This document shows, one piece after another, positions 49,770 through 58,024 of a DNA stretch of 64,000 nucleotides. The stretch is from assembly GCF_004766055.1 (NCBI RefSeq), contig NZ_SPQR01000010.1, positions 1 through 64,000 on the forward strand. Reading direction: 5' to 3'. Within the stretch, counting starts at the first letter, position 1. Each line of letters starts with the position of its first letter. The DNA is from Desulfosporosinus sp. Sb-LF (GTDB lineage Bacteria; Bacillota; Desulfitobacteriia; Desulfitobacteriales; Desulfitobacteriaceae). Below the pieces are notes generated by a model. The model had not been told where the DNA came from and did no database searches. It saw only the letters and a list, made by a program, of their open reading frames with translations. Both the position numbers and the translations under genes were made by a program.

Positions 49770-50768
49770 ATGGCTATAGTTATTGTGGATGATACGATTT
49801 TTAGTTTAAAAGTAATTGAAGCCTTTCTTATGTCTGCGGGTTATTTAGACGTTATCACCCTTAAATCGGCTAGAGAACTTTATCAGTTAGTAGACGGTTA
49901 TTCAGAACGAGGGATAGTCAAAATTGATTTAATTCTGATGGATATAGTAATGCCAGAGGTTGATGGAATCGAGGCATGCCGAAATGTTAAGAAGAGAGAA
50001 TGGCTGGTAGATGTACCAGTAATAATGGTGACCGCTACAACGGAAAAAGATGATCTGCAGATGGCTTTTGCCGCGGGTGCTATGGACTTCATTAAGAAAC
50101 CTCTCGATAAGATGGAGTTATTAGCACGGGTGCGTTCGGCATTGAGATTGAAACATGAAACGTATCGACGAAAAGCCCGAGAGACGGAACTGCTTGAGGT
50201 CACGCACCAATTGCAAGCGGCGAATGAGATGTTACAAAATCTTTCTTACTTAGACGGACTGACAGGAATAGCTAACCGCCGGCATTTTGACCAGGGATTG
50301 CTTCAAGAGAGTAGGCGTGCCAAGCGGGAAGGTAGTCCTCTTTCTTTGATAATGCTAGATATTGACTATTTTAAAGCTTTTAATGATACATACGGTCACC
50401 TTCAAGGCGATGACTGTCTAAAAACAGTAGCATCTACTCTTAAACAAACTTTGAAACGTCCCGGAGATTTTCCCGCACGTTATGGAGGGGAAGAGTTTGC
50501 CGTTGTTTTGCCAAACACAAACGACGTAGGGGCTGCCATTATAGCCGAGGAGTTACGGGCTAGTATCGAGAGGGCGGGCATTCCGCATATCAATTCTCCC
50601 AGCGAGGATCATGTTACAGTGAGTCTTGGAGTCGTAACCAGATTTCCGGGACAAGCTGACACACCGGATGATTTGATTTTAGCTGCTGATCGTGCTCTTT
50701 ACAGTTCAAAACATGAAGGCCGCAATCGGGTTAGTGTGGAACGGCTGCCGAAGATCGATGAAACATAA
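49770..50768 (+). CDS. Response regulator-diguanylate cyclase
   Basis: The 332-residue protein has a REC domain (1-125; acidic pair Asp7/Asp8, phospho-site Asp58, Thr88, Lys110), a helical linker (130-160) and a GGDEF domain. The active site is GGEEF (239-243), with inhibitory RxxD at 230-233 and 'DGLTGIANRRHFD' before it. Phosphorylation should promote dimerisation and cyclic di-GMP synthesis, as in PleD/WspR-like proteins. AAGGAGG precedes the ATG. No histidine kinase is next to it; the nearest is the H-cluster-type kinase 4-8 kb downstream, a possible but unproven partner. Confidence 0.92.
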   Translation: MAIVIVDDTIFSLKVIEAFLMSAGYLDVITLKSARELYQLVDGYSERGIVKIDLILMDIVMPEVDGIEACRNVKKREWLVDVPVIMVTATTEKDDLQMAFAAGAMDFIKKPLDKMELLARVRSALRLKHETYRRKARETELLEVTHQLQAANEMLQNLSYLDGLTGIANRRHFDQGLLQESRRAKREGSPLSLIMLDIDYFKAFNDTYGHLQGDDCLKTVASTLKQTLKRPGDFPARYGGEEFAVVLPNTNDVGAAIIAEELRASIERAGIPHINSPSEDHVTVSLGVVTRFPGQADTPDDLILAADRALYSSKHEGRNRVSVERLPKIDET

Positions 50769-51078: not shown

Positions 51079-52986
51079 TTGTCTATATTTCAATCACACA
51101 TTTTGACGGATTATAACAAGTGCCAGGGGTGCAATAAATGCATAAGGGTTTGCCCGGTCGGGGCTAATTCTGCCTACCTTCTCGACGGTGAAGTTAAAGT
51201 AGAAATCAATACCGGAAAATGTATCGAATGTGGACGATGTATTACTGTCTGTGACCACGAGGCTCGATCATATATTGATGATACGGAAGTTTTTTTTCGC
51301 GATCTTAAGAAAGGCCGGAAAATTACAGTACTGGCGGCACCGTCTGTGCGGGTTAATTTTAACAATTACAACAAACTTTTCGGTTTCCTCCAATCGTTAG
51401 GTGTCCAATTCATTTATGATGTTTCGTTTGGCGCGGATATTACGACTTGGGCATATTTGAAAGTAATTAATGAGAAAAAGCTCTCAACGGTCATCGCCCA
51501 ACCCTGTCCAGCAATCGTCAACTATATCGAAAGATTTAAGCCGAATCTATTGGACCAGTTATCCCCTATTCACAGTCCAATGATGTGTACCGCAGTTTAT
51601 GTGAAGAAATATCTTAAAGACAGTTCGGATTTAGCCATGCTCTCACCCTGTATAGCCAAAAAGGGGGAATTCGAAAGTACCGACAATCTAATTAACTATA
51701 ATGTTACCTTCAAAAAACTTGCCCAATATTTGCATGAAAATCATATTTCATTGGATGCCCACAAGGAGAAAGAGTTTGACGATATTACCTGTTCATTGGG
51801 GTTTCTATTCAGTCGTCCAGGGGGATTGAAAGAAAATGTGGAGGCCTATGTTCCGGGGGCATGGGTGAGGCAGGTGGAAGGACAAGAAGCCGCTTATGAC
51901 TATTTAGAAGTTTATAGTGAACGGATTCATAAACAGAAACCAGTTCCTTTATTGGTCGATATCCTTAATTGCCCTCATGGTTGTAATATTGGTACAGGTG
52001 CATGCCTAACTGAAGATGTAATGGATGATATTGATCACGAGTTTAATTTGCTTAAACAGGGTAAATTAAGTGAAAAAGAGGGTAAAGGGTTTTCTAAAAA
52101 GTCTAGAAAGACGTGGATGGTAGATTACTTTGACAAGAATCTTAACATAAGGGATTTTTATAGAAATTACCATACGGATCGTAAAGTTGCAGATCTTAAA
52201 ATTCCTACGACTAAAGAACTCGACGAGATTTTTAAGTCCATGTACAAGTTCGACGATAAGGCATGTAATATTAACTGCACGGCATGTGGTAATAATACCT
52301 GTCGAGAAATGGCCATAGCTATTTATAATGGGGAAAATATACCGTTTAACTGCTTAGATTATACGAGAGGAGCGGTTTTGGCTCAGAACGCGAAAAATAC
52401 AGAGATCAATGAGATGATGAAGGAAATCGAGTTGCTCAGTGATCAACGCTTAAAGGATGCTAAGAATATCCAGAATCATTTTAGTTCCCTCAGGCTTTCC
52501 GTTAATGAAATTGCTAAAGCAAACGAGGAAAGTGCAACAAGCCTTAATAAGATGTCTGACCAAGTTCATAGAACGTTAGTCACCGCAACAATGTTAAGAG
52601 ATAGTGTTACTCAAATGAAATTAAAACTGGATGATTTCAGTAAGGCGTCCAGTAAAATCGTTGATATTGCAAGTCAGACAAATTTACTTTCGCTCAATGC
52701 GGCAATTGAGGCTGCGCGGGCAGGAGAAAATGGTCGCACTTTCTCAGTTGTGGCCCAAGAAGTTAAAAAGCTTGCTGAACAATCTGGTAATGTTGTGCGT
52801 TCGACTGTCGATGATGAACAGTCGATGTTAGCGCTGATTTCTGGGATTTCAGAAGTGTCGGTGCAATTAGAAAAAGAAATGAATAATATGACGGATGAAG
52901 TTTCTCGGATTTTGTCTTCCGTTGAGGAACTCACAGCAAAAGGCCAAGAAATTCTTGCCTCAGTTGAAGAATTTGGAGCAGAATAA
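51079..52986 (+). CDS. Chemoreceptor fused to ferredoxin and [FeFe]-hydrogenase-like domains
   Basis: The 635-residue soluble protein has two ferredoxin clusters (Cys15/18/21/25 and Cys48/51/54/58). A hydrogenase large-subunit-like domain (about 80-320) and a four-Cys Fe-S domain (Cys400, 403, 408, 425) follow. A coiled-coil leads to an MCP signalling hairpin (about 524-570, '[35 protein letters not shown]'). The four H-cluster ligand positions are kept: Cys143 (QPCPA), Cys191 ([11 protein letters not shown]), Cys298 and Cys302 (NCPHGCNIG). Residue 142, the proton-relay Cys in true hydrogenases, is Pro. No membrane span or periplasmic sensor. It should signal H2, CO or redox state to CheA/CheW-like partners. 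TTG start behind GGAGGTGG. Confidence 0.88.
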
Positions 52987-53088
52987 TTACGCTTATATTT
53001 TTGGCCGCGATCGAGCATAGGTCGTGTGGAGTGCTATACGGAAGGATTCGAGGTAGGGGAAAAGCAAGTAGTTTACGATTGAGGTTGA

Positions 53089-53117
53089 AAGGGAGTTCAA
53101 ATAATAGTATCTCCCTT
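53089..53117. terminator. Bidirectional terminator between convergent sensor genes
   Basis: AAGGGAG and CTCCCTT arms lie between the chemoreceptor stop (52986) and the stop of the minus-strand response regulator (53123). Confidence 0.55.
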
Positions 53118-53122
53118 CATAA

Positions 53123-54628
53123 TTATGCACGAATATCATGCATCCGGTCTCTAGCCGTTTCATTCATCACTTTGTTTCCACCTTTATGGACAATGGTATC
53201 GCGAAAATATTGCTGAGCTTCAGTCATTAAACCATTACGCACACAAAGTTCAGCCAGTAGCATAGTCATCCGCTGGTCCTGTTCAACTGTAGTTTGACTT
53301 CTACTGTTATGGAATAAATCTTTGTATAGAATTAAAGCCTTTTCTGAAGCCATTTTAGATAATTCCAACTCAGCTACATCATCGTAAAGCCAAGCTAATC
53401 GTAACCATAACTTACTTTCTTGGGACTTATTATTTAATCCCTCTATACAATGTAACGCTAAATAATATAGTGTAAATACTTGATCTATAGTACGTTTAGT
53501 GGTGAAGTCGCCATCTATCCCAGACTTTAGTTCAGAAAGTTTTTGTGGAATTGAGCTTTTTGCTTTTTCAGTAATTTTATCAAAATCCTCAACCAGACTG
53601 GCATACTTACAGTGCGAACAAATTTGGATACTGTACCAAAGTGGCTCAAAGCCAACAAAATGCCTTCGAAAGTCAAGGTCAACTTTATCTATAGCTAATT
53701 TAGTAAATCGTACAACTTGTATCTCAATAGAACTTTCACATACAGGACAAGTAGTTTTTTTCATAAAGATAAAGTTATCTATTGGTCCAGTTGAATCTAG
53801 AGAATACTGCTTATGCTCTGGAGGAAATAACTTGGTTGAAACAAAATTAGACTCAGCAATGGGAGCACAACTATTCTTAGCAATATCTACCACTGCAGAG
53901 CTAGTGCTTAATTCAGTGGTAAGTTGATCTAAAAGCCCATCAATTTTTTTATCCCTCAATAATTGTATAAAGTTAGCGTTTTTAGCAACTACCTTAGTAA
54001 CTCCGTTCACTGCTTTCATTGCTTTTACTATACCGCTAATTTTTTCTAGTAAGGACTGTGGAAGGAACTCAATATTACCAAAATCAATAGCGACATTAAG
54101 CGGTTTTACATATAAAAGCCCTTGCACAGCTTGGTATAATAATTTGAAATTTTCTTCAGTTAGAAATTTCGTTATTTTGATCTGGAATGTATTATTAATA
54201 GACTCAATTGCAAAGGGTTGTTGAGTTGTTGATCCTGAGTTTTCATTTTGTGCTTTTCTACCTGTTTCAACACCTAAAACCTTTTGAACAACAGTTACTA
54301 CAGAATCATATGTGACAGGTTTAATTAAGTAATGCTTAGCACCCAGTTCTAAAGCATCAAAAACCATGTTTCTTTGAGACAGAGCACTCACCATAATTAT
54401 CTTAGCTTTTGGGTACTCCTGCATTATAAGTCTAACAGCGTCAATTCCATTAATACCAGGCATAGTAATGTCCATAGTTACTAAATCTGGCAAATGAGTT
54501 CTGTACATAAGATGTGCATCTCCACCATTCGCTGCTTCGCCTACAACTGTATGCCCTGCTTTAATTAAAATGCTAGCTATGTTTTTACGCATTATATTAG
54601 AATCGTCTACCACTAAAATACGAGCCAT
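53123..54628 (-). CDS. Response regulator with STAS-like and DUF2225-like parts
   Basis: The 501-residue protein has a REC domain (1-120; Asp8/Asp9, phospho-site Asp53, Ser81, Lys103). Residues about 150-255 resemble a STAS/anti-anti-sigma fold ('PLNVAIDFGNIEFLPQSLLEKISGIVKAM'). From about 290 it is DUF2225-like: 'TCPVCESSIEIQVVR' and 'ICSHCKYASLVEDFD' give two C-x2-C pairs for zinc, with TPR-like helices to the end ('LWLRLAWLYDDVAELELSKMASEKALILYKD'). It has no DNA-binding domain, so output is through protein contacts. It lies 12 bases after the H-cluster kinase gene and is its likely phosphate acceptor. Confidence 0.85.
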   Translation of the reverse strand: MARILVVDDSNIMRKNIASILIKAGHTVVGEAANGGDAHLMYRTHLPDLVTMDITMPGINGIDAVRLIMQEYPKAKIIMVSALSQRNMVFDALELGAKHYLIKPVTYDSVVTVVQKVLGVETGRKAQNENSGSTTQQPFAIESINNTFQIKITKFLTEENFKLLYQAVQGLLYVKPLNVAIDFGNIEFLPQSLLEKISGIVKAMKAVNGVTKVVAKNANFIQLLRDKKIDGLLDQLTTELSTSSAVVDIAKNSCAPIAESNFVSTKLFPPEHKQYSLDSTGPIDNFIFMKKTTCPVCESSIEIQVVRFTKLAIDKVDLDFRRHFVGFEPLWYSIQICSHCKYASLVEDFDKITEKAKSSIPQKLSELKSGIDGDFTTKRTIDQVFTLYYLALHCIEGLNNKSQESKLWLRLAWLYDDVAELELSKMASEKALILYKDLFHNSRSQTTVEQDQRMTMLLAELCVRNGLMTEAQQYFRDTIVHKGGNKVMNETARDRMHDIRA

Positions 54629-54640
54629 TTCAACTGCCCC

Positions 54641-57600
54641 CTACTTATTAATTATTTTAGTGCCTCTAGGCATTACCAAATTCAGACTAATATTTCCCAG
54701 CTCAGTCTGCAGGTTACAACCCCAAATCTGAGAGTCTTTGTATCTAAATAGAGCATCTTCCGAAGAAAGTGAAATTGGTGTATCAATTATCAACAGTTCC
54801 TCAAGTCCTGGAAATTGTTTCAATGAATTGCCAATAATAATATTGACAACTTCGCCAAGAACATCTTCCATATAAGCTTCTTCTTCTTCCAGTGTTATTT
54901 CATCCAAAATAAAATTACGTACAACCTTCCGCAAAACAGGTTCAGAAAAACTTACAATGACGACAATATCCAGTGCTCCCCTGATATTAATGATTGCCGT
55001 TACTTTATTAAGTTCAATTTTTTTGAGCCTTTCGACTTGGAAATTGTCTTCACATGTAACAAGTAGGTCTGTTTGCTCCAACATAAATTTGCTTGTCGTA
55101 TCGACGAGTGGTTGCATTAATTCTGAAATAGTTACTTCCCAACCACCTTCAGTCTCTTTGGGTAGGCAAAAATAAAATTGACTTCCAGCACCTAACTCCG
55201 TCTTTACCACTACTGAACCACCGAGCTTATTCATCTCACTCAACACTGCTGCTAAACCAACTCCGCGACCTGATAAGTCGTTGACATCATCTTTAGTAGA
55301 TAAACCATCGTCAAATATAAGTTGGATAGCTTCCTCATCAGTCATTAGATTTACTTCTTCCATGGTTCTCAACCCGCTATCCACAGCCTTATTACGCAGA
55401 TTTTCAGCGTCAATTCCACGTCCATCATCGGTAATGGATAAGCATATTTGCTTTTCTGTCTCTGAAATCGAACACGTTATTTTACCGAATTCGTCTTTAC
55501 CCGCTTCCAATCGCTCATCTACTGATTCGAGTCCATGATCTACAGCATTTCGAAAAATGTGTACAAGGGATTTAGCAAAGCCGTAGAATCGATCGGGGTT
55601 AACTAATATTTGGTCCTCTTGTGTGATTAACACATAAACCGACTTTTCCAGCCTATCTGCCAGATTTGCCACATACTCTGGGTAGGATTTTAACAGCAAA
55701 TCAAATGATTTATAACGAAGTTTACGCAATTCAGGAATAAGTATTTTACACTCGACAGGGGTAAGAATCGTTTCTATTTTCTTTTCGATCTCTAGCAATT
55801 TGTTTCCATCAATAACCAATTCGTCGTCTTTAGAGAAGAAATCCCGACCTAGAATATCTTGTAACCCCGTTATATCTTCATCTAACCAAGTTAGTAATGA
55901 AAATTGGGCAAGAAATTCTTTGACATCGCCAATAGTTAATTCGTGCGACACTAAGTTTTTCTTTAGCATCTCAATTCGAGTTTCTAAGTTATGTAAATTA
56001 GCAACTACACTACTCAAACCTAATTGACCAAAACTTCCTTTAAACGTATGGATATGTCTAAAAATCTCAGTCACTTTCTCAACTAAGGAGGTTGCCTTAT
56101 TATCTAAAATTTCTTGCAGGCGTGCTTCACAGAAATAGGTATAATCTTTAGCCGTTTGATTAAAGTCAACATAATTTAATACAACATTGACGACCATTTT
56201 GAGTAAATTTCGCTCTTGTTCTATCTCAGTTTCTAATGTTCGGTGATTAGTTATATCTGTCAAGATGACCATATAATAACTTTCTATGCCATTTCCAGAA
56301 TCAATTAACTTATAGTCGATACTTATAACTCTACTGTCAATAGTTACTTCTGTTGGAAGTAACGGTAAATAAATCTCACGGAACAAAGGATCGCTGTTAT
56401 TCAAAACCTTAACTAATAACGACTTAAGAAAATTTTCTTGCTCAATATCATCTGGAAAGACTAACTGAGGAAAACTAAGTCCGTGAATATCTCTATTAAA
56501 AATCCTAGTACACTCAGAACTGTATTCATTATGAATTAATAGATCTGACCCAAAAGAAAGAAAGCCTTGCCCCGCGTTATCAAGTAAATTTCTAATAGAC
56601 TGAGTTCGTAAAACTACTGTCTGTTCCAAACCATCATTTAATAGTTCTAGTTCAGCGTTTGCTTCTTCAATTTCAATAGTCTGAGCTTCGACATTTCTTA
56701 GATTACGTTCGTTTTCTTTAAACAAGTAGTATTTACAGCTTTCTCTGTGGTTGAGTCCATTTAGTATAGCTAACATCATTCCATGACAATTGCCATAACC
56801 ACATGAGGAGCAATTAATTTTACGTTCTTCAGGTGTGAGTTTATGCATTAGCTCCCATATTTGCTCTTCTTCTTTTTCGTCTTTTGGATCGCATAAATGT
56901 TTATTTGATGACTTATCGGAATAAACCCTTGAGAAATCTATGTCTTGGGCATCGATCCAAGCATAGAAATCCTTGAATAGATTTTTAGCTCTTTCTGGGC
57001 TTGCACTATTATGTTTAATAATTAGATCTTTTTTACGTTTCTCAATAATCTTATCAATTTGATAATGAGTACGATTATGAGTAATCGCAGGTCCAACGTT
57101 GCAACCATGCAAACAGTTTAGGACGTCTATAAGTACTGGTGCTTCGCTACGAAGAATATCTTCTTTAAGCTCTGGCAAATATTTTGTGTATACTTCTTGA
57201 GGTCCTTCTATTCTTTGTATATCAGATTTTTTAAAAGGTATGCCAAAACGGTTGAATGTGTCAGTTAATCCACCTGGTTGAGAATAGCCAATACCTCTTT
57301 CGGCCTCGGGAGTGTCAAACCCAGAAGGCTCTAACTCCGCTAAGTTGATTCCTTGCTCTGAAAGATAGTTATCCAATGACTCAAAAGTTATATTATAAGA
57401 AACTACTCCTCCAGTATTTGGGTCGTGGAACTCCCTACGCTTAGCTAGGCATGGTCCAAGGAAAGCTAGTTTCAAGTGGCTAAATTCTGGCTGGTTTTTG
57501 AGCCAAATAGCAACATCAAGTGCTGGCGAGTGTGTAGGTGCTAAGAATGGTATGAGTTCTGTATGGTATATTTCAATAAAACTAACAACAGCTGGGCAGG

Positions 57601-58024
57601 GCTGAGCAATAATTGGCTGCTTGGCACCGTTTTTCAAGACCTGTAAGTATAGATAAGTTGTGATTTCTGCCCCAAAACTTACGTCAAAAACATTATAAAC
57701 GCCTATTTCACGTAAAGCAGTTAGCACGTTAGGCATCAATTCAGCATAATTTACAGCTGCCGCAGGTGCAACTAGTATACCTACAGGAACCCCTGATTCG
57801 ATATCACTAAGAAATTCCGAAAAATCGTCGATTCCAGAACGAGCATAATGACCTTTTTCTCTGCACGCCTTAATACACTCGCCGCAACCAATGCAAAGAT
57901 CCGCTTTAACTATAATACCGTCAGGCTCTACAATGTTGCACAATTTTACTGGACAAACTAAAATACAAGCGAGACAGTGTTGACACTTATTTTTATCTAC
58001 CCGAATTACTTCCGGCAACCCCAT
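54641..58024 (-). CDS. CheA-like histidine kinase with H-cluster-type sensor and CheX-like domain
   Basis: The 1127-residue protein has two ferredoxin clusters (Cys14/17/20/24 and Cys44/47/50/54) and a hydrogenase-like domain with ligands Cys143 (QPCPAVV), Cys192 (GPCLAKRREFH), Cys304 and Cys308 (NCLHGCNVG). The relay position 142 is Pro. Next are a four-Cys Fe-S domain (405, 408, 413, 430), a coiled-coil (440-475), a PAS domain (476-595) and an Hpt domain with His659 ('HTFKGS'). A CheA-type HATPase (N box 822-831, G1 866-872, G2 919-924) and a CheX-like C-terminus (about 965-1120, 'EDVLGEVVNIIIGNSLKQF') complete it. It should autophosphorylate in response to a gas or redox signal. GGTGGAG precedes the ATG. 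Confidence 0.88.
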   Translation of the reverse strand: MGLPEVIRVDKNKCQHCLACILVCPVKLCNIVEPDGIIVKADLCIGCGECIKACREKGHYARSGIDDFSEFLSDIESGVPVGILVAPAAAVNYAELMPNVLTALREIGVYNVFDVSFGAEITTYLYLQVLKNGAKQPIIAQPCPAVVSFIEIYHTELIPFLAPTHSPALDVAIWLKNQPEFSHLKLAFLGPCLAKRREFHDPNTGGVVSYNITFESLDNYLSEQGINLAELEPSGFDTPEAERGIGYSQPGGLTDTFNRFGIPFKKSDIQRIEGPQEVYTKYLPELKEDILRSEAPVLIDVLNCLHGCNVGPAITHNRTHYQIDKIIEKRKKDLIIKHNSASPERAKNLFKDFYAWIDAQDIDFSRVYSDKSSNKHLCDPKDEKEEEQIWELMHKLTPEERKINCSSCGYGNCHGMMLAILNGLNHRESCKYYLFKENERNLRNVEAQTIEIEEANAELELLNDGLEQTVVLRTQSIRNLLDNAGQGFLSFGSDLLIHNEYSSECTRIFNRDIHGLSFPQLVFPDDIEQENFLKSLLVKVLNNSDPLFREIYLPLLPTEVTIDSRVISIDYKLIDSGNGIESYYMVILTDITNHRTLETEIEQERNLLKMVVNVVLNYVDFNQTAKDYTYFCEARLQEILDNKATSLVEKVTEIFRHIHTFKGSFGQLGLSSVVANLHNLETRIEMLKKNLVSHELTIGDVKEFLAQFSLLTWLDEDITGLQDILGRDFFSKDDELVIDGNKLLEIEKKIETILTPVECKILIPELRKLRYKSFDLLLKSYPEYVANLADRLEKSVYVLITQEDQILVNPDRFYGFAKSLVHIFRNAVDHGLESVDERLEAGKDEFGKITCSISETEKQICLSITDDGRGIDAENLRNKAVDSGLRTMEEVNLMTDEEAIQLIFDDGLSTKDDVNDLSGRGVGLAAVLSEMNKLGGSVVVKTELGAGSQFYFCLPKETEGGWEVTISELMQPLVDTTSKFMLEQTDLLVTCEDNFQVERLKKIELNKVTAIINIRGALDIVVIVSFSEPVLRKVVRNFILDEITLEEEEAYMEDVLGEVVNIIIGNSLKQFPGLEELLIIDTPISLSSEDALFRYKDSQIWGCNLQTELGNISLNLVMPRGTKIINK

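Follow-up and report, generated by a model that had tools for sequence, protein, structure and literature searches.

Putative hydrogenase-derived iron-sulfur sensors in a CheA-like kinase and a soluble chemoreceptor of Desulfosporosinus sp. Sb-LF

Two convergent genes of Desulfosporosinus sp. Sb-LF, located at positions 51,079–58,024 of the 64,000-nucleotide stretch that was analyzed (the window; positions 1 to 64,000 of contig NZ_SPQR01000010.1, assembly GCF_004766055.1), encode a methyl-accepting chemotaxis protein (MCP) and a CheA-like kinase that share an N-terminal region related to [FeFe] hydrogenases. Do the receptor and the kinase operate as a single signaling system? The original prediction, made from the DNA letters and translated open reading frames (ORFs), joined them in one cytoplasmic array that senses gas or redox state. 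The analysis described here points, with moderate confidence, to two separate signaling proteins that use versions of one hydrogenase-derived Fe-S sensor, namely a soluble kinase paired with a response regulator and a receptor that feeds a distant CheA. At the level of sequence, the domains, the intact catalytic motifs and the conserved pairing of the kinase with its regulator are established.

The kinase and its response regulator

The kinase gene (54,641–58,024, minus strand, 1127 amino acids; ORF list and Pfam) encodes, in order, two [4Fe-4S] ferredoxin motifs (57,851–58,009; two Pfam Fer4 matches), a hydrogenase-like H domain (Fe_hyd_lg_C, 57,089–57,778; Pfam 6e-30) with the ligands Cys143, Cys192, Cys304 and Cys308, an FeS domain (56,735–56,812) in which the Cx2Cx4Cx16C motif is complete at Cys405, 408, 413 and 430 with a Pfam value of 0.002 that falls under the Pfam cut-off, a PAS domain between coiled-coil helices (56,249–56,572), an Hpt domain with His659 as the predicted phospho-acceptor (55,973–56,116; Pfam 1.5e-5), a CheA-type HATPase_c domain with intact N, G1 and G2 boxes (55,154–55,573; Pfam 9e-16), and a predicted CheX phosphatase domain (54,740–55,003; Pfam 1e-11). 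The PAS assignment derives from a predicted model of residues 455–800 (mean predicted local distance difference test score, pLDDT, 82) for which the best match was the PAS domain of FixL (Z 11.3, root mean square deviation 2.6, 112 residues aligned). In a Pfam search of 14 kinase sequences, PAS families were missing from every listing at E≤0.5, but Hpt was matched in all 14. The CheX motif D...E..N...GN, in which we take E..N to be the active-site motif, is kept in 11/11 CheX-bearing kinases, and the Hpt, ATPase and CheX motifs of the window kinase are all intact. The Hpt, HATPase and CheX domains named originally thus were recovered, and the PAS domain is an addition to that list.

Pfam detected no CheW/P5 domain in the kinase at E≤1, and none of the eight CheW matches of the genome falls at the window locus. 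This domain is present in 100% of the CheA set surveyed in the accessible part of PMC10782961. Because the CheW/P5 domain is missing, the kinase is classed by its sequence as CheA-like, presumably working like a CheA/CheX fusion, and not as CheA.

The regulator gene (53,123–54,628, minus strand, 501 amino acids; ORF list and Pfam) starts 12 bases past the kinase stop codon, as was noted at the outset. It specifies a CheY-like receiver (REC) with Asp53 (54,287–54,619; Response_reg 5e-26), a probable STAS-like domain without the DSSG phosphosite (53,909–54,223; weak profile match and model topology), and a DUF2225 domain with a Cys-rich start and an otherwise helical composition (53,138–53,767; Pfam 1e-43). 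The receiver is nearest to archaeal and Thermotoga CheY. A receiver gene adjoins the kinase gene in all nine intact loci, the window included, where the regulators are of the REC-STASlike-DUF2225 (two), REC-STASlike (six) and REC-GGDEF (one) types. The DUF2225 fusion is confined to the window genome and genome G021, and GGDEF takes its place in genome G265. Asp53 is invariant in 10/10 regulators. A kinase with a split ORF on a 3.6-kb contig (G028, locus L051) was excluded from the nine intact loci; a partial REC follows there too. Gene order and domain conservation mark the kinase and its regulator as a conserved pair.

The identity of the middle domain of the regulator is less secure than that of DUF2225, which stands as first proposed. 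Pfam returned no STAS match at E≤1, and an hhalign comparison of residues 136–240 with four STAS proteins was weak (E 0.0039, probability 8.6, 92/105 columns). A STAS topology is apparent in a regulator model of low confidence (mean pLDDT 62.6). A PDB sequence search with the region retrieved one STAS chain at a non-significant E of 0.29, and fold searches with the whole regulator model returned receiver domains that swamped other matches. STAS identity accordingly is graded as probable. Elsewhere in G265, a separate DUF2225 protein is fused to a cyclic-nucleotide-binding domain (L198:970-2166), which suggests that DUF2225 is a signaling output.

Full-length relatives of the kinase are sparse. 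They were found in 6/60 relatives, with the own genome counted, plus one in pieces, and in at least 4/398 genomes of the phylum, again with the own genome counted (E≤1e-80); the latter figure is a lower bound as two candidates were scored per genome. The closest kinase in a named genome collection is 91% identical and belongs to a Desulfosporosinus metagenome-assembled genome. Genomes G073 and G191 harbor a kinase with PAS, Hpt, ATPase and CheX domains and no H sensor, beside a REC-STASlike gene (local BLAST labels).

A swappable hydrogenase-derived sensor

The soluble receptor (51,079–52,986, plus strand, 635 amino acids, TTG start; ORF list and Pfam) has the same N-terminal plan as the kinase followed by an MCP hairpin. 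Two [4Fe-4S] ferredoxin motifs (51,100–51,264; Cys15, 18, 21, 25, 48, 51, 54 and 58; two Pfam Fer4 matches) precede an H domain (51,319–51,993; Pfam 5e-33) with the ligands Cys143, 191, 298 and 302 and with Pro142 at the position of Cys299 in CpI, an FeS domain (52,276–52,353; Cx2Cx4Cx16C at Cys400, 403, 408 and 425; Pfam 1.5e-5), and a signaling hairpin with a canonical tip and a short C-terminal arm (52,618–52,974; MCPsignal 7e-23). The shared ferredoxin, H-domain and four-Cys plan, the convergent arrangement, and the positions originally assigned to the H-domain ligands, His659 and Asp53 all proved correct.

All three ligand patterns of the H domain were matched in 57/59 homologues scanned, and in the other two (L042, L043) the mismatch is confined to the third-loop pattern. 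The Cys motif of the FeS domain was matched in 58/59, the exception being a short ORF (L040). As the cluster-binding Cys residues are kept across homologues of both receptor and kinase, the domain plan is not a product of chance. In 54/59 sequences, receptor and kinase included, Pro stands where CpI has its proton-relay Cys299; in the putative sensory groups C and D this position is mostly Ala (PMC10407848, as excerpted). In the alignment, M353 is replaced by Ser in the receptor and by Gly in the kinase, and M497 by Leu in both. Sequence features of a putative sensory [FeFe] hydrogenase of groups C and D are present: two N-terminal [4Fe-4S] motifs, four H-domain Cys residues, loss of Cys299, and the C-terminal Cx2Cx4Cx16C motif that is described for these groups in the available text of PMC8163306. 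A PAS domain, as in group C, was recognized in the kinase, and Pfam reveals none in the receptor. Judged by MCP association alone, the fusion in the receptor corresponds to HydDB group C2.

In a 62-sequence sensor tree, which was midpoint-rooted, had long outgroup branches flagged and was built from the sequences collected in this analysis, the 54 Pro sequences form a single clade (support 100/99) that splits into receptor-type and kinase-type halves. MCP output requires at least five changes over this tree, and the kinase-CheX architecture is compatible with one origin, its own branch being weak (87/45). On the basis of these architecture changes, the H-type sensor therefore is considered a swappable module. 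Recent duplication of one sensor into receptor and kinase was ruled out, since the two sensors sit in sister clades.

Further fusions and neighbors of the sensor were observed. A third sensor of the family in the same genome (G000:C11:7953-10553; L056, L006) is fused to GGDEF-EAL, with GGDEF and EALLR motifs present and the EAL part resting on its motif; relatives of this fusion occur in G003, G021 and G028. An H-type sensor in G087 is fused directly to a GGDEF domain (L167:5996-7756; local BLAST label). At L178:5934-10307 and L186:5534-9352, a receptor with the sensor (an H-type receptor) lies beside an H protein of 435–438 amino acids and a lone HATPase. The short H protein has a group D-like build, with an SACP motif in L178, where a CheW is present as well.

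Receptor coupling, outputs and alternative explanations

H-type receptors are present in many relatives, and their association with the kinase is loose. Within the flanks retrieved for nine intact kinase loci, an H-type receptor was found at one, the window itself. The co-occurrence search proposed originally gave a non-significant result, with receptors in 3/7 kinase-bearing genomes compared to 11/53 others (p 0.34), or 13/53 (p 0.37) with the addition of G047 and G053, whose MCPs are of the short type; the counts assume that the 60 genomes of the kinase search lie within the 110 of the receptor search, the 63 unmatched genomes being unlisted. Receptor relatives do adjoin another kinase type. 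In G014, a receptor relative is convergent with a HisKA kinase that bears the same sensor type, and in G026 the genes for REC, histidine kinase, HD-GYP and MCP share one strand, separated by 15, 60 and 45 bases, in an apparent operon whose kinase likewise is of the HisKA type with the same sensor.

The receptor arm extends 91 amino acids past the tip, similar to the 87–88 of four further short MCPs encoded in the genome. This short-arm class comprises 5/22 own-genome MCPs measured, the receptor included, and 12/22 have 160–162 amino acids. Among H-type receptors, the arm is 89–96 amino acids in 24/27 measured and 73–80 in three; three further MCPs of the tree were missed by the tip pattern. 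As the short arm is general among H-type receptors, frameshift or truncation behind it was ruled out. Two of the short own-genome MCPs adjoin cheW genes, in G183 a cheW gene and an H-type receptor gene, three genes apart, belong to one same-strand gene run, and the own genome encodes two CheA proteins with CheW domains. The short-arm class with its own cheW genes, together with cheW in G183, favors coupling of the receptor through CheW to a genuine CheA. Pairs of short MCP-like proteins with cheW were noted at L060:7094-8642 and L061:5209-6523, the latter close to genes for a hybrid kinase and for an HD-GYP protein.

Motility and cyclic di-GMP (c-di-GMP) are the likely targets of the kinase-regulator pair. 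Among the matches listed, a GGDEF gene is found no farther than 5 kb from the kinase in 6/9 loci. When these loci are reduced to six independent contexts, four have such a gene, more than a simple uniform model predicts (p about 3e-4). The nearby GGDEF protein in G265 is the cognate regulator itself. The GGDEF signature is present in the kinase-neighboring proteins of the window, G014, G055 and G265. The window protein is a PleD-like REC-GGDEF putative diguanylate cyclase with a GGEEF site, encoded 310 bp upstream of the receptor (49,770–50,768, plus strand). In G021, the 6 kb that follow the pair contain cheR, motB and motA, encoded on the opposite strand, as well as flgK. The link to taxis and c-di-GMP that had been foreseen gained support from the GGDEF neighbors and from the cheR-motBA context. 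A promoter and terminator scan of the locus gave numbers near or below chance.

In the favored scheme of two separate proteins, H2 or redox state would set the state of the H-type cluster, be it a complete H-cluster or the [4Fe-4S] part alone, and thereby alter the FeS domain. The coiled-coil PAS would relay this change to the Hpt and ATPase domains, His659 would be phosphorylated, and the phosphoryl group would pass to the CheY-like regulator at Asp53. The CheX domain of the kinase may subsequently remove it, such that one protein would be both a CheY-type kinase and phosphatase. The regulator would act through STAS-like and DUF2225 domains here, and through GGDEF in one relative, on motility or c-di-GMP. 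The cytoplasmic receptor would signal through its MCP tip to a CheW/CheA(P5) complex encoded elsewhere rather than to the neighboring kinase. The gene cluster thus may tune swimming and sessility to the H2 or redox state of this anaerobe.

The single array envisaged originally, in which the receptor tip controls the neighboring kinase, would explain their adjacency and convergence in the window, and it is partly rescued by the receptor relatives beside same-sensor kinases in G014 and G026. Nevertheless, it was rejected as improbable: the kinase lacks the P5 domain and carries its own sensor, the two sensors belong to sister clades, synteny between receptor and kinase is lacking in the retrieved flanks of eight of nine loci, and co-occurrence is not significant. 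A route confined to c-di-GMP, in which the receptor acts through a Wsp-like CheA on REC-GGDEF with no flagellar taxis, also is improbable. The adjoining REC-GGDEF gene fits it, as do a Wsp-like cluster in the own genome (local BLAST labels) and GGDEF or HD-GYP genes near 7/30 H-type receptor loci, but the CheX domain and the cheR-motBA-flgK context indicate motility, and 21/22 receptor loci of one set have no labeled c-di-GMP gene within four ORFs. It is barely credible that the two proteins are metabolic hydrogenases that have degenerated, or fusions that arose by chance, and that they have no role in signaling. Both have lost the Cys299 position, yet full-length architectures are conserved across genera and families with intact kinase, CheX and MCP motifs. 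The strongest competitor, unlikely but deserving of weight, is that the H domain is a [4Fe-4S]-only sensor of redox or gas which never holds the [2Fe] subsite, with H2 not the signal. Nar1-type relatives exemplify such a domain. The Pro replacement in 54/59 sequences and the substitutions at M353 and M497 agree with this proposal, as does the failure to find HydF in 10/45 sensor genomes although the ligands are intact in those compared. Conversely, HydE, HydF and HydG all are encoded in the own genome, and G265 has the order hydG-hydE-hydF-kinase-REC-GGDEF on one strand (L112:6104-14448; gaps of 65, 9, 145 and 38 bases), with each maturase above its curated cut-off. In addition, TamHydS and TmHydS, which have lost the same Cys, yielded activity or H-cluster states in Fourier-transform infrared spectra following artificial maturation, according to the accessible portions of PMC8163306 and PMC10055695.

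Several observations weigh against the favored scheme of separate H-cluster-type proteins. The maturase survey of sensor genomes covered HydF alone, at E≤1e-60, and the ten genomes without a match are G027, G035, G044, G047, G053, G069, G078, G155, G376 and G381; they include the single-contig G044 as well as G069 and G155, both of which carry a full kinase. Eight of the 36 sensor genomes with completeness ≥90% and contamination ≤5% have no match, and G057 and G457 match the C-terminal part of HydF only. HydF is present in 35/45 sensor-bearing genomes and in 13/21 controls, an excess that is not significant (p 0.24); the controls are sensor-less only at E thresholds of 1e-30 or 1e-80. Ligands and pocket are not relaxed in the HydF-less hosts compared: in matched pairs of hosts with and without HydF (L112 vs L113/L114, L185 vs L164, L170 vs L115, L159 vs L158, and L048 vs L049) the ligands are identical and the pocket segments nearly so. 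Because HydF-less hosts keep both, H2 binding does not look to be required across the sensor family; H2 sensing is plausible for the window proteins and probably absent as a property of the whole family. A response to H2, CO or redox state is putative, a CheA partner for the receptor is presumed, and the STAS identity of the regulator is weak. The kinase-neighboring GGDEF proteins of G005 and G027 lack the signature by the pattern used and so may not make c-di-GMP, and the window GGDEF gene is on the strand of the receptor, outside the kinase operon. A c-di-GMP gene lies near just 7/30 H-type receptor loci (the window, L053, L054, L120, L123, L124, and L158 at three ORFs away; mostly local BLAST labels), and a general c-di-GMP neighborhood of these receptors is not claimed as a rule. 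The Wsp-like cluster itself (L059:4711-13822; G000:C8, about 164.7–173.8 kb; local BLAST labels) is ordered CheW, a 500-amino-acid protein, CheW, MCP, CheA-REC, a REC protein and REC-GGDEF.

Relationship to known systems

A broader proposal is advanced tentatively, as one that probably overreaches: the 54-sequence Pro clade could be an interchangeable Fe-S input for MCPs, P5-less kinases with CheX, HisKA hybrids and GGDEF/EAL proteins, which reads H2 with a full H-cluster where HydEFG are available and uses the [4Fe-4S] part alone where HydF is absent. If so, a hydrogenase has been turned into a plug-in sensor and a change of cofactor is visible among living relatives. The role of sensory [FeFe] hydrogenases is still putative and the signaling step disputed, as the consulted parts of PMC8924675 and PMC13104023 convey. 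The soluble, full-length sensors described here have outputs that can be assayed (phosphotransfer, CheA coupling and c-di-GMP), which makes H2 signaling by an H-cluster domain testable, and the matched relatives with and without HydF allow the need for the [2Fe] subsite to be examined.

The open-access literature searched yielded no earlier account of a P5-less Hpt kinase that contains CheX, of the Pro clade, of HydF-less sensors or of the gene order hydG-hydE-hydF-kinase. The initial view that no such system had been described nonetheless was too strong. The [FeFe] groups of HydDB already include putative histidine kinase-linked (C1) and chemotactic (C2) members, akin to the locus in tying putative sensory domains to histidine kinases or MCPs; neither an Hpt kinase that has CheX but lacks P5 nor a GGDEF/EAL output is named in the [FeFe] rows of the available excerpt (PMC5037454). 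In view of these groups, the receptor and the sensing concept are known in outline, and the kinase is a new variant. The sensors resemble the group C and D proteins TmHydS and TamHydS, insofar as these are portrayed in the passages available, in the two N-terminal [4Fe-4S] motifs, the loss of Cys299 and the C-terminal Cx2Cx4Cx16C motif. The receptor is the same as TamHydS at M497/M353 (Leu/Ser) whereas the kinase differs (Leu/Gly), and the kinase shares its PAS domain with group C. Both window sensors are distinguished by Pro in place of Ala at the Cys299 position and by fusion to full signaling outputs.

Wsp chemosensory systems also have MCP and REC-GGDEF genes as neighbors, but employ a CheA with P5, a domain that the window kinase does not possess. 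With CheA, the kinase has in common Hpt and a CheA-type ATPase, and it differs in the absence of CheW/P5 and in its own PAS and H-type sensor; fusion of CheC/CheX is reported for the F1 CheAs of Leptospirae (PMC10782961, in part). Ppr of Rhodocista centenaria similarly is a sensor kinase protein tied to a chemotaxis pathway, but its sensors are photoactive yellow protein and bilin-binding domains (PMC2993699, as excerpted), whereas those of the window proteins are of the Fe-S type.

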